Shown here: piece by piece, positions 7,114 through 62,919 of the stretch
How positions within the stretch are numbered: the first letter of the stretch is position 1
Layout of the letters: every line of letters starts with the position of its first letter
Source of the DNA: Alloyangia pacifica
Lineage (GTDB): Bacteria > Pseudomonadota > Alphaproteobacteria > Rhodobacterales > Rhodobacteraceae
NCBI RefSeq assembly: GCF_020524285.1
Contig: NZ_JAIVKX010000010.1
Location: 62,001 to 126,000 of the forward strand
Length of the DNA: 64,000 nucleotides
Direction of reading: 5' to 3'
Notes under the pieces: model-generated
The model's database searches: none
What the model saw: the letters and a program-made list of their open reading frames with translations, nothing else
Told to the model about the DNA's origin: nothing
Program-made: the position numbers and the translations under genes

Positions 7114-7265
7114 CCCCCTCTGTCCTTTCGCCTGAGATCGTTATCCCTTCGGCGGGCGCTAGGAACGCCTCTCTCCAGAGTTTTCAAGTGCCGCGAAGGT
7201 CCTGTGGCCTGAGAGTTTCCGGGGCGGTTGCTCCTTCGGCACCGGCAAGGCCGGTTCTCCCATCG
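7112..7265 (-). promoter_or_regulatory. Tandem glycine riboswitch (gcvT motif)
   Basis: Read on the minus strand the leader shows two consecutive copies of the glycine aptamer core. The first has GGGAGAA, CCGAAGGAGCAA, AAACTCTCAGG and ACAGGACC in order. The second has CTCTGGAGAG, CCGAAGGGATAACG, ATCTCAGGCGAAAGGAC and a closing AGAG. These are the hallmark segments of the two-aptamer glycine riboswitch that switches on glycine cleavage genes when glycine is abundant. It lies directly upstream of gcvT, about 10 nt after a TATAAT box. Confidence 0.95.
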
Positions 7266-7281
7266 CGATGGCGGTGAAACT

Positions 7282-60826: not shown

Positions 60827-61873
60827 TCAGAGCCGGAACAGTCCCAGCGCGTCCATCACCTCGCGCTTCGTGGCCTCGGTCACCTCGCGCGCGACCTGCG
60901 TGCCCTCGGCGATGATCCGGTGCACCTGCGCGGGATCCGAGGCGACCTCGGCCCGCCGCGCCCGGATTGGCGCCAGCAGCGCCTGCAGGATGTCCTCGAG
61001 CCGCCGCTTCAGCACCGTGTCGCCAAGCCCGCCGCGGCGGTAGTGATCTTTGAGCGCCGCCACCTCGTCCTTCGCCTCGTCGAACGCGTCGAGATAGGTG
61101 AAGACCACGTTGCCTTCGACCCGGCCCGGATCCTGCACCCGCAGGTGGTCGGGGTCGGTGAACATCGCCCGCACCGCCCGGCTGATCTCGTCTTCGGAAG
61201 CCGAGAGGGTGATCGCGTTGCCCCCGGACTTGCTCATCTTGGCGCGCCCGTCGATGCCCGGCAGGCGGCCCGCCTCGGGAATCAGCGCCTGCGCCTCGGG
61301 CAGCACCTCGCGCCCGGCGGTGGCGTTCACCCGCCGCACCACCTCGTTGCACTGCTCGATCAGCGGCGCCTGGTCCTCGCCCACCGGCACCACGGTGGCC
61401 TTGAAGGCGGTGATGTCCGCGGCCTGCGCGGCCGGGTAGCAGAGGAACCCGGCGGGGATGTCTCGGCCGAAGCCGCGGGCGCGGATCTCGTCCTTGATCG
61501 TCGGGTTGCGCTCGAGCCGCGCGACGGTGACGAAGTTCAGGTAGAGCATCGACAGCTCGGCGAGCGCGGGCAGGTGCGACTGCAGGCAGATCGTCGTCTT
61601 CCTGGGGTCGATGCCGACGGCAAGGTAGTCGCAGGCTACCTCCAGCACGTTGCGGCGCACCTTGCCGATGTCATGGGCGTTGTCGGTCAGCGCCTGCGTG
61701 TCGGCGAGCAGCAGGAACTGGCAATGCGTGTCCTGCAGCGCCAGCCGGTTCTTCAGCGAGCCCGCGTAGTGGCCGATGTGCAGCGGGCCGGTGGTGCGGT
61801 CGCCGGTGAGGATGACCGGCTTGGCCGCGGTGGCGGCGTCGGTCTCGGGGCGGGTGAGCGTGGTCTGGTCCAT
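60827..61873 (-). CDS. trpS: Tryptophanyl-tRNA synthetase, auxiliary (TrpRS II-like) type
   Basis: The 348-residue class I synthetase has the HIGH motif H32-I-G-H35 ([18 protein letters not shown]) and KMSKS at 212-216. The sequence around HIGH, the [17 protein letters not shown] segment and [16 protein letters not shown] resemble the TrpRS II group (for example that of Deinococcus) rather than the more common housekeeping form (LHLGNYLGA). Members of that group in other bacteria are indolmycin resistant or inducible. It is preceded by a Trp-codon leader and attenuator. Confidence 0.85.
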
Positions 61874-61951
61874 GGGGGTCTCCGTGTCTGGACAGGGTCT
61901 GTCGGGTCAGGGAGGTCGCCGCATGGGGGACTTGATGGGGTGTCGTACATC

Positions 61952-61981
61952 AAAAAGGCCGCCCGATGCGGCGGCCTTTTT
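61952..61981 (-). terminator. Terminator hairpin (3:4) of the trpS attenuator
   Basis: On the minus strand AAAAAGGCCGCC (61981-61970) pairs perfectly with GGCGGCCTTTTT (61963-61952) around a 6-nt loop, giving a 12-bp stem whose last five U residues form the T-tract. It ends 79 nt before the trpS start. The 5' arm (region 3) can instead pair with region 2 at 62005-61999. Confidence 0.92.
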
Positions 61982-61998
61982 GAAAACATGATACGTCG

Positions 61999-62017
61999 GG
62001 CCGCCTATGTCAGGCGG
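61999..62017 (-). promoter_or_regulatory. Regions 1 and 2 of the trpS attenuator
   Basis: Region 1, CCGCC (62017-62013), lies within the last codons of the leader peptide. Region 2, GGCGGCC (62005-61999), follows the stop. Regions 1 and 2 pair as a pause/protector hairpin, and region 2 pairs perfectly with region 3, GGCCGCC (61976-61970), as an antiterminator. A ribosome stalled at the Trp codons would cover region 1 and favour 2:3. Confidence 0.85.
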
Positions 62018-62054
62018 GCCACCAGAGAGTCGCAAGGGGCATCGGACGTGTCAT
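62010..62054 (-). CDS. trpS leader peptide with two adjacent Trp codons
   Basis: The 14-codon frame reads MTRPMPLATLWWPA and ends with TGA at 62012-62010. Two consecutive TGG codons in so short a peptide, immediately upstream of region 2 and the terminator, are the classical design of a Trp-sensing leader. There is no clear ribosome-binding site except a G-run 13 nt before the ATG, so the ATG may be near the transcript 5' end. Confidence 0.8.
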   Translation of the reverse strand: MTRPMPLATLWWPA

Positions 62055-62060
62055 GACGTC

Positions 62061-62089
62061 TGGTTAGCCCCCCGCGCGCGTCGGATCAA
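62061..62089 (-). promoter_or_regulatory. Candidate promoter of the trpS leader
   Basis: TTGATC (62089-62084) and TAACCA (62066-62061) are 17 bp apart on the minus strand. The -10 element is poor. Transcription would begin within a few nt of the leader-peptide ATG. Read-through from pyrF, whose stop lies at 62102-62100, is an alternative. Confidence 0.4.
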
Positions 62090-62099
62090 GTCTTGTTCC

Positions 62100-62831
62100 T
62101 CATGCCCTGTTGGGGCGCTGCGCCTGTGGCGAGGCCAGCTCGGCATTGATCGCCAGCGCCGCGTCACGCGGCGAGGGCGCGCGCCAGACCGGGCGGCCCA
62201 CGACGATGTGGTCGGCCCCGGCGGCGATGGCGCTGGCGGGCGTCGCGATGCGCTTCTGGTCGTCATCGGCGCTGCCTGCCGGGCGCACGCCGGGGGTGAC
62301 GATCAGACGGCCCTCGGACTCTGGCAGCGCGCGGATGCGGGCGGCCTCCATCGGCGAGGCGATGATGCCGTCGGCCCCGGCCTCGAAGGCGCGGGCGGCA
62401 CGTTCCACCACCAGATCGGCCACGTCGCCCGCCTGCATCAGACCGTCGTCGAGGTCGGCCCGGTCCAGCGAGGTCAGGATGGTCACCGCGAGGATCTTCA
62501 GGTTCGAGCCCGCGGCGCCCTGCTTGGCGGCGCGCACCACGTGCGGATCGCCATGCACCGTCAGGAAGTCGAGGTCGAACTGCGCGATGCCGCGCACCGC
62601 GTTTTCGACGGTCTGGCCGATGTCGAAGAACTTCATGTCTAGGAAGATGCGCTTGCCGTGCTCCTGCTTGAGCTCGTTGGCGAGCGCCAGTCCGCCTCCG
62701 GTGAGCATGCCGAGGCCGATCTTGTAGAAGGAGACGGCATCACCGATCTCTTCGGCGACTTTGAGCCCCTCGAGGGCGTTGGGCACGTCGAGGGCGACGA
62801 TCAGGCGGTCATCGGACACGGCTGCGGACAT
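62100..62831 (-). CDS. pyrF: Orotidine 5'-phosphate decarboxylase
   Basis: The 243-residue TIM-barrel enzyme makes UMP in pyrimidine synthesis. The signature DMKFFDIGQTVENAV supplies the catalytic Asp-Lys-Asp array, and the N-terminal LIVALDVP and C-terminal VTPGVRP and GADHIVVGRPVWRA (phosphate loop) are in place. It is upstream of the trpS leader on the same strand. Confidence 0.95.
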   Translation of the reverse strand: MSAAVSDDRLIVALDVPNALEGLKVAEEIGDAVSFYKIGLGMLTGGGLALANELKQEHGKRIFLDMKFFDIGQTVENAVRGIAQFDLDFLTVHGDPHVVRAAKQGAAGSNLKILAVTILTSLDRADLDDGLMQAGDVADLVVERAARAFEAGADGIIASPMEAARIRALPESEGRLIVTPGVRPAGSADDDQKRIATPASAIAAGADHIVVGRPVWRAPSPRDAALAINAELASPQAQRPNRA

Positions 62832-62897
62832 GGGGCGGCTCCTTTTGCGGGATTTCGCCTCTCATGTCCGCGCCGGGCGTTCAGGTCAAGCCCACGC

Positions 62898-62919
62898 CAA
62901 AAGCCTTCGAAGGCTTTTG
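62898..62919 (-). terminator. Palindromic terminator after the penicillin-binding protein gene
   Basis: A perfect 22-bp palindrome with centre GCCTTCGAAGGC and outer CAAAA/TTTTG arms. On the minus strand it provides a stem followed by four T residues. It is the probable end of the PBP transcript. Confidence 0.75.

Follow-up and report, generated by a model that had tools for sequence, protein, structure and literature searches.

The auxiliary trpS locus of Alloyangia pacifica

The DNA analysed here, referred to as the window, is a stretch of 64,000 nucleotides from contig NZ_JAIVKX010000010.1 of Alloyangia pacifica. A group of attenuator-like elements lies 5' of a trpS gene, all on the minus strand at 61950-62054, and they occupy the places where a preliminary description of this DNA had put a complete trp-type attenuator. 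The 14-codon leader with adjacent Trp codons that it claimed is also present, as MTRPMPLATLWWPA, running from the ATG at 62054 to the TGA at 62010. The features of the locus are as follows.

62100..62831, minus strand: pyrF (OMPdecase, PF00215, E 3e-50), a codirectional upstream gene outside the unit
62084..62089, minus strand: putative -35 box TTGATC, 17 nt before the -10 box; TTGAC-like boxes occur at the same place in many relatives
62061..62066, minus strand: putative -10 box TAACCA, separated from the leader ATG by 6 nt
62010..62054, minus strand: leader ORF MTRPMPLATLWWPA, from sequence and conservation
62019..62024, minus strand: tandem Trp codons TGG TGG, putative stall site, conserved in second-copy relatives
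62011..62020, minus strand: region 1, overlapping the second Trp codon and assigned from the 1:2 duplex (CCGCCTG is 62011-62017)
61999..62007, minus strand: region 2, TAGGCGGCC, assigned from the 2:3 duplex energy; its core is nearly invariant
61966..61976, minus strand: region 3, GGCCGCC(GCAT), the putative switching strand and partner of region 2, 4 or 5
61957-61964, minus strand: region 4, GGGCGGCC, with T5 directly after it at 61952-61956
61950..61983, minus strand: predicted intrinsic terminator hairpin 3:4, including A5:U5 (14 bp, -25.8 kcal/mol)
61913..61924, minus strand: region 5, ATGCGGCGACCT, which is complementary to region 3 and lies past the terminator but ahead of the Shine-Dalgarno sequence of trpS
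61879..61885, minus strand: Shine-Dalgarno-like ACGGAGA of trpS
60827..61873, minus strand: trpS2, predicted auxiliary TrpRS II-like tryptophanyl-tRNA synthetase of 348 aa (ATG at 61873, stop ending at 60827)

The identity of the trpS product is supported by a TIGR00233 score of 219.6 bits (cut-off 176.75). The genome has two TrpRS genes, whose products are 32% identical, the other being of the housekeeping type. A TrpRS match is present in 147 of 149 genomes of the host family (Rhodobacteraceae), mostly at about 30% identity, that is, of the housekeeping type; close relatives of TrpRS2 (E up to 1e-80) occur in 14 of 394 family genomes, including the window's own and counting one partial match. 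Across the host class, 29 of 385 genomes have a match at E up to 1e-100, seven of them (the window included) at at least 67% identity and 22 at 50-57%, the latter all in genomes of at most 2.1 Mb. Judged from these comparisons, trpS2 encodes an auxiliary, sporadically found TrpRS II-like enzyme. Its best solved relatives are PDB 1yi8 (E 9.6e-118) and 2a4m (E 9.2e-115), the second of which is titled tryptophanyl-tRNA synthetase II; both are presumably from Deinococcus radiodurans.

Position 60 is Gln in all 126 members of the TrpRS2 family, sole copies included, and His in all 50 housekeeping enzymes. We read it as the counterpart of His43 of the B. stearothermophilus enzyme, a residue that, according to a passage of PMC9071491, contacts indolmycin. 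Gln60 is thus a hint of indolmycin-type insensitivity, but since sole copies have it too, it marks the family and is no proof of insensitivity.

Relatives of TrpRS2 are also carried on plasmids (91 records at E up to 1e-60). These include 24 Staphylococcus and 21 Klebsiella records, at about 53 and 61% identity, respectively, among the 60 of the 91 that were listed. One record labelled Streptomyces (NZ_CP107771, L212) matches at the identity level of the staphylococcal records, and its label may be wrong.

Conservation of the leader peptide

The leader was defined as an ATG-initiated ORF of 7-26 codons that lies 90-260 nt 5' of trpS and has TGGTGG close to its end; this rule, like the promoter scores and helix limits used below, is our own. 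Leaders were counted at 107 of the 127 loci whose TrpRS has at least 50% identity. The number of TrpRS copies was taken by eye from the places that exceeded the cut-off, with split long forms taken as one and some copy numbers coming from draft or metagenome genomes. The counts leave aside L007 (no start found), L178 (upstream sequence that of L050), and L036, L075 and 16 of the 22 loci L148-L169 (copy number not searched); a Trp-Trp leader is present in L036 and L178, and none is seen in L007, L075 and the 16. Both L038 and L176, whose upstream sequences are identical, were counted.

A Trp-Trp leader was found at 58 of the 74 loci with a second TrpRS in the genome, at two of the 33 where this type of TrpRS is the only one found, upstream of none of the 50 trpS genes of housekeeping type, and in 4 of 3700 shuffles of the upstream sequences. 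Because of kinship among the loci these are not counts of independent events, and the sole-copy set is dominated by few taxa (14 Acinetobacter, four Cupriavidus and six small-genome relatives), so that the contrast between second and sole copies rests on few lineages. The Trp-Trp codons lie a median of 127.5 nt from trpS (range 111-239). Leader-bearing second-copy loci span the Alpha-, Beta- and Gammaproteobacteria and include one record named Deltaproteobacteria. All seven plasmid loci examined (eight were fetched) also have a Trp-Trp leader, among them records from Variovorax and Deinococcus. Conservation of the Trp codons in relatives, which the preliminary description had put forward as a check on its reading, is therefore borne out.

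Sixteen second-copy loci fall outside the strict rule. Nine of these conform if a single Trp codon or a stop farther on is allowed, and in L048 and L082 the Trp-Trp frames exceed the permitted length; a leader of this kind is absent from five of the 74 loci (L044, L058, L087, L180 and L182). When one Trp codon is accepted, the counts become 67 of 74 second-copy, 6 of 33 sole-copy and 6 of 50 housekeeping loci, and of the six sole-copy cases only L076 and L105 have similar-looking leaders. Single-Trp leaders (ending, for example, in YWRRS, NWRRC or TWCRS) with the hairpin kept downstream occur in L084, L085, L086, L090 and L098, all from Oxalobacteraceae, in L056 from Caballeronia, and in L146; the Trp codon stands at about the same place. 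At L044 (Vineibacter terrae) regions 2-5 look intact by eye and the Trp leader ORF was not found, and its leader is possibly decayed or misassembled.

The association with a second TrpRS can also be seen among close relatives. Four Cupriavidus loci from genomes with one TrpRS (L043 and L045-L047) are without the leader, and it is present in their sister L040, from C. basilensis, which has two. In a tree made by a quick method, which left 44 of 119 inner branches open, the Cupriavidus, Paraburkholderia and Caballeronia copies lie inside an alphaproteobacterial group, suggesting horizontal transfer. Twelve loci, mostly near-duplicates, and L007 were left out of this tree, and L108 is mislabelled in it as leader-free.

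A probable leaderless start

A gap of 6-7 nt separates the end of the best sigma-70-like match from the leader ATG in 63 of 72 loci; among other ATGs of these regions, taken as controls, it occurs in 149 of 535. The 72 were chosen for a Trp leader that had been seen (L108 was missed), and where more than one ATG was available (22 loci) start and promoter were picked jointly. Among loci with a single candidate ATG, 44 of 50 have this spacing. A promoter so placed would set +1 on the A of the leader ATG or immediately beside it, and the leader mRNA is probably leaderless, with the A of the ATG as its predicted first nucleotide. The boxes in the window (TTGATC-N17-TAACCA-N6-ATG) are weak: a scan of 61700-62900 for a strict consensus promoter gave no match, and the -10 box preferred by the automatic score is one base off (AACCAG, spacer 18, gap 5). 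In the nearest relative, L032, the -10 gap is 6. There are precedents for such starts, as the trpL RNA of S. meliloti begins at its ATG (a passage of PMC7298713), and trpL2, which precedes trpS in S. lividans, is described as leaderless, with the sequence MMTRTCTQLWRAA (an extract of PMC8079986).

Alternative pairings of regions 1-4

The 131 nt stretch at 61940-62070 folds at -55.0 (z -3.6); the 200 dinucleotide shuffles average -40.6 (SD 4.0), and none of them was as low as the native sequence. Duplex energies in the window are -14.9 kcal/mol for 1:2 and -17.4 kcal/mol for 2:3. The terminator had been described as a perfect 12 bp hairpin, and its 7 GC and 5 A:U pairs are all there, although RNAfold extends the stem to 14 contiguous pairs (-25.8 kcal/mol over 61950-61983). 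As had been proposed, the pairings 1:2, 2:3 and 3:4 are mutually exclusive, since neighbouring pairings use common bases.

Covariation was assessed by asking, for each locus, how the duplex energy of its own two segments compares with the energy obtained when segments are swapped among loci (5000 permutations, 49 loci). Hairpins and duplexes were examined in 69 of the 72 promoter loci (L077, L103 and L176 being out) and then in 68, after removal of L040, whose hairpin is not 3:4; these gave 51 or 49 non-redundant loci, and for L085 and L086 the limits of the hairpin were placed manually. Own pairings were much more stable than swapped ones for 1:2 (z -6.8) and 3:4 (z -13.4), with 0 of 5000 permutations as low in either case. 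For 2:3 the pairing is conserved without covariation (z -0.7 in the 49 loci, z -1.5 in 23 lineage representatives), because the core hardly varies and own and swapped duplexes are similarly strong. The compensatory changes that the preliminary description had sought in relatives are thus found for 1:2 and 3:4 and not for 2:3. Seven control pairings (r1:r3, r1:r5, r2:r5, r4:r5, r2:SD, r3:SD and leader:r5) gave no clear stabilization relative to swapped segments over all loci; the lowest was r1:r3 (z -0.7), and r2:SD (z +2.5) and r3:SD (z +2.6) were weaker than swapped. In the beta/gamma/delta subset only, r4:r5 reached z -2.5 (47/5000). Column covariation of 3:4 within the type A loci, to which the window belongs, has low power, two of the eight pairs being invariant.

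Terminators are good in type A and in most beta loci, and the U-tract after 3:4 is missing in type B (Rhizobiales and relatives). At equilibrium the read-through RNA of the window folds into 3:4 whether or not region 2 is free, so that 2:3 would need to win kinetically. Equilibrium folding of stalled and released states at 25 loci had a mixed outcome.

These data bear on the simplest alternative, in which the hairpin is a mere terminator of pyrF and the Trp-Trp ORF is there by chance. The hairpin is flanked by A and T tracts and scores as a terminator on both strands, and pyrF, which runs in the same direction, stops about 116 nt before it. However, the upstream gene varies while the unit stays with trpS: among the 16 loci whose upstream genes were looked at, six were tested, and these have pyrF, Nramp, short-chain dehydrogenase, resolvase, histidine kinase and transglutaminase genes, respectively. 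A chance ORF is hard to reconcile with the excess of Trp-Trp leaders at second-copy loci over shuffled sequences, and 1:2 covaries even though termination does not need it. We therefore reject a plain pyrF terminator, since the unit follows trpS and not its upstream gene, and regard this explanation as most improbable.

A fifth region that pairs with region 3

The preliminary description likened the architecture to that of the trp operon. This holds for the four regions, but there is in addition a fifth region, 3' of the terminator, that pairs with region 3; the four-region classical model has no region of this kind. The 3:5 duplex has an energy of -19.2 kcal/mol in the window. Own segments exceed swapped ones with z -9.6 (0/5000, 49 loci), and at the level of lineages, represented by 23 hand-picked loci, with z -7.9 (0/10000). 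In the type A alignment A2, 83.5% of the cells of the 3:5 helix are paired, against 37-54% when the helix is slid, and 5 of its 11 pairs have changes on both sides. The pairing is kept with differing sequences, such as GCCGCCAGCC:GGCTGGCGGC in Burkholderia, CCTCGAT:ATCGAGG in Massilia and GCTGCTGGA:TCCAGTAGC in Alteromonas. Among the plasmid loci, 3:5 beats at least 95% of foreign partners in five of seven; it is unremarkable in Roseibium (45%) and weak in Deinococcus, where it beats only 1%, leaving region 5 unsupported there. At the sequence level, then, covariation between regions 3 and 5 holds in most lineages tested.

Lying 3' of the terminator, region 5 could act only on read-through transcripts. 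In 38 of 48 loci, 16-25 nt separate the end of region 5 from the trpS start (in the window the distance is about 39 nt, farther than is usual), and in several loci it overlaps, by eye, a hairpin that contains the Shine-Dalgarno sequence. Pairing between region 5 and the Shine-Dalgarno sequence gives z -3.0 overall (10/5000), about -3 in type A and in the beta/gamma/delta loci, 0.2 in type B, and -2.2 (154/10000) for the 23 representatives. The predicted accessibility of the Shine-Dalgarno sequence shows no clear difference between the 3:4 state (mean 0.38) and the 3:5 state (mean 0.45), being higher in 33 of 48 loci (L085 left out; p = 0.07), and it does not exceed that under a control mask (p = 0.29). 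By subset, type A shows no effect (higher in 8 of 13 loci, p = 1.0), and one is seen only in the beta/gamma/delta loci (14 of 18, p = 0.03).

We give about an even chance to region 5 being a second, translational checkpoint, and infer both its existence and its direction. The direction that we favour is that 3:5 would open the Shine-Dalgarno hairpin, with the reverse effect almost as probable. Lineages without the U-tract would most need a translational step, and it is perhaps the sole checkpoint there.

Two other readings of region 5 carry weight. Attenuation may be wholly transcriptional, region 5 having another role (in mRNA stability or as a processing site) or none. Type A and most beta loci do have good terminators, and the reading accords with the non-significant result for Shine-Dalgarno accessibility and with a region 5-Shine-Dalgarno pairing that is weak and, in type B, absent. 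Yet 3:5 has been maintained by compensatory change across many lineages, and region 5, which cannot affect a terminator already passed, keeps its position close to the trpS start at most loci; we hold this reading as a tentative one, somewhat short of an even chance. The second reading reverses the sign, so that 3:5 would repress trpS translation on read-through of the leader and 2:3 would relieve it upon stalling. This is the simplest extension of the classical logic, regions 4 and 5 both being off-partners of region 3 and both beaten by region 2, and visual inspection of several type B loci places the 3:5 helix directly against the Shine-Dalgarno hairpin. Against it, 3:5 ends 5' of the Shine-Dalgarno sequence in most loci, and in type A and the beta/gamma/delta loci region 5 tends to pair with that sequence, which 3:5 would open. 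Repression by 3:5 is accordingly a credible possibility, to which we give less than half of our confidence.

Proposed mechanism

It is very likely, on the evidence of the sequences, that a ribosome-mediated tryptophan attenuator controls this auxiliary TrpRS; that reading, already advanced in the preliminary description, gains support from the conserved Trp-Trp leaders and from the covariation of 1:2 and 3:4. Transcription would begin with the first base of the leader ATG or a base beside it, and the leader peptide would be read from the extreme 5' end. With ample Trp-tRNA the ribosome would pass the Trp-Trp codons, region 2 would be masked or paired with region 1, and 3:4 would terminate transcription before trpS2. 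Stalling would be triggered by a shortage of charged tRNA-Trp, arising from Trp starvation or from a blocked or saturated housekeeping TrpRS; a ribosome stalled on the Trp-Trp codons would mask region 1, so that 2:3 could form, no terminator would arise and trpS2 would be made. This classical part of the mechanism follows from the anatomy of the leader. In the read-through RNA, region 3, or its loop-side half, could pair with region 5 upstream of the trpS Shine-Dalgarno sequence.

The trigger might instead be general translation stress, for example antibiotics that slow the ribosome, with the leader indifferent to the charging of tRNA-Trp. Upstream ORFs can sense translation inhibitors. The S. 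meliloti leader peptide peTrpL has an antibiotic-response role, as a passage of PMC7298713 describes. The conserved codons, however, are Trp codons, the target gene charges tRNA-Trp, and the single-Trp variants retain their Trp codon, so that we consider general stress sensing unlikely and prefer tRNA-Trp charging as the signal.

The broader proposal, which could fall either way, is of a widespread dual attenuator in which region 3 would pair with region 2 (antitermination), region 4 (terminator) or region 5 (access to the trpS start), and one stalled ribosome would govern both transcription and translation; the element would move with its gene between classes, and perhaps phyla, and be lost when the auxiliary enzyme becomes the sole TrpRS. 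Many Proteobacteria would have a spare TrpRS with its own sensor for failing Trp-tRNA charging, and the lack of that sensor in most cases where this enzyme is the only TrpRS found provides a natural experiment. Region 5 raises the question of whether one switching strand can serve transcriptional and translational control in amino-acid attenuators, and the system may point to natural exposure of marine and soil bacteria to TrpRS inhibitors.

Relationship to known systems

In the trp operon attenuator of enterobacteria and rhizobia, a short leader contains Trp codons and is followed by the pairings 1:2, 2:3 and 3:4, the last with a terminator. The trpS2 leader has the corresponding parts, namely a leader ORF with Trp codons and exclusive 1:2, 2:3 and 3:4 pairings with an intrinsic terminator. 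The best Rfam match at the site is to RF02552, RcsR1 (61952-62038, minus strand; 26.6 against 60 bits), an earlier designation for the trp attenuator RNA of S. meliloti. RF00513 (Trp_leader, gathering threshold 41 bits) gave no hit there at E values up to 10; among eight relatives, L034 scores 32.7 bits against the 41 required and the other seven give none up to E 0.1. The T-box family has no match in the window, and an assignment of the site to the T-box or another known RNA family was rejected, there being no above-threshold match. The likeness to the trp operon attenuator (RF00513; S. meliloti trpLE(G)/rnTrpL) extends to the Trp leader, the pairings and, from part of the S. meliloti literature, the leaderless start; unlike it, the trpS2 leader governs a synthetase and not biosynthesis, and it has region 5. 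We also considered whether trpE of the same genome is attenuated and rejected this for the best of its three trpE-like matches: within 450 nt of that match no ATG-initiated leader contains Trp, and there are only two frames with one Trp, which overlap and start with GTG.

The pheST attenuator of gammaproteobacteria is a precedent within the Proteobacteria for a tRNA synthetase under ribosome-mediated attenuation, and pheST encodes a housekeeping synthetase. The pheST and trpS2 leaders are alike in attenuating a tRNA synthetase in this phylum but differ in the amino acid and in the housekeeping role of PheST. The pheST attenuator is named in a passage of PMC1262725.

The closest parallels are in Streptomyces, where attenuated trpS genes are described for S. 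lividans (trpL2-trpS; part of PMC8079986) and S. avermitilis (trpS2; part of PMC1262725) and an indolmycin-resistant second TrpRS is known (an extract of PMC9437257). The preliminary description had cited attenuation of an auxiliary TrpRS in Streptomyces, but the parallel is closer than it supposed, since trpS2 itself encodes an auxiliary TrpRS II-like enzyme. Vecchione and Sello reportedly found in 2010 that the attenuated trpS of S. coelicolor is the indolmycin-resistant second copy. As in Streptomyces, the regulated TrpRS coexists with a distant housekeeping TrpRS, at about the 30% identity level, and a Trp leader precedes trpS, that of S. lividans being described, in the part of the source used, as leaderless with two hairpins. 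The differences are that A. pacifica belongs to another phylum and that the same part of the S. lividans account reports one Trp codon and no U-rich stretch and mentions no region 5. Like TrpRS II, the trpS2 product is a second TrpRS in its cell, but we saw no sign here of the link to nitric oxide synthase described in a passage of PMC9437257. A small CDS before Caulobacter trpS, detected by ribosome profiling (a passage of PMC4117421), may be a related case. The open-licence PMC papers searched yielded no account of such an element from other Proteobacteria, nor any of a region 5, although an earlier mention is possible.

Gene neighbourhoods and nearby riboswitches

At three of the leader-free second-copy loci (L058, L180 and L182) the TrpRS gene adjoins an amine oxidase gene and a HemN-like radical SAM gene; the best NCBIfam match of the amine oxidase is VioA (190-229 bits, cut-off 600). 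A TrpRS gene without leader, next to a VioA-like amine oxidase gene below the family cut-off and a HemN-like radical SAM gene, was noted in three loci, given as L217 (Salinarimonas, G174), L218 (G1012) and L219 (G1097). These are possible clusters for a Trp-derived TrpRS inhibitor accompanied by its own TrpRS. In part of PMC12087186, the cluster for the TrpRS inhibitor chuangxinmycin is described as containing a TrpRS gene and a radical SAM methyltransferase, although its first step is carried out by an aminotransferase; the likeness of the leader-free loci to it may serve as a lead and is no proof. Antibiotic producers are said in a passage of PMC9437257 to escape suicide by means of a second, insensitive synthetase about 30% identical to the housekeeping enzyme.

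Two riboswitches were noted in passing. A glycine riboswitch aptamer (RF00504) lies at 7187-7272 of the window on the minus strand (55.8 bits, cut-off 32), and a Guanidine-II riboswitch (35.2 bits, cut-off 32) is found near trpS of Silicibacter lacuscaerulensis, at 3775-3822 of L034 on the minus strand.
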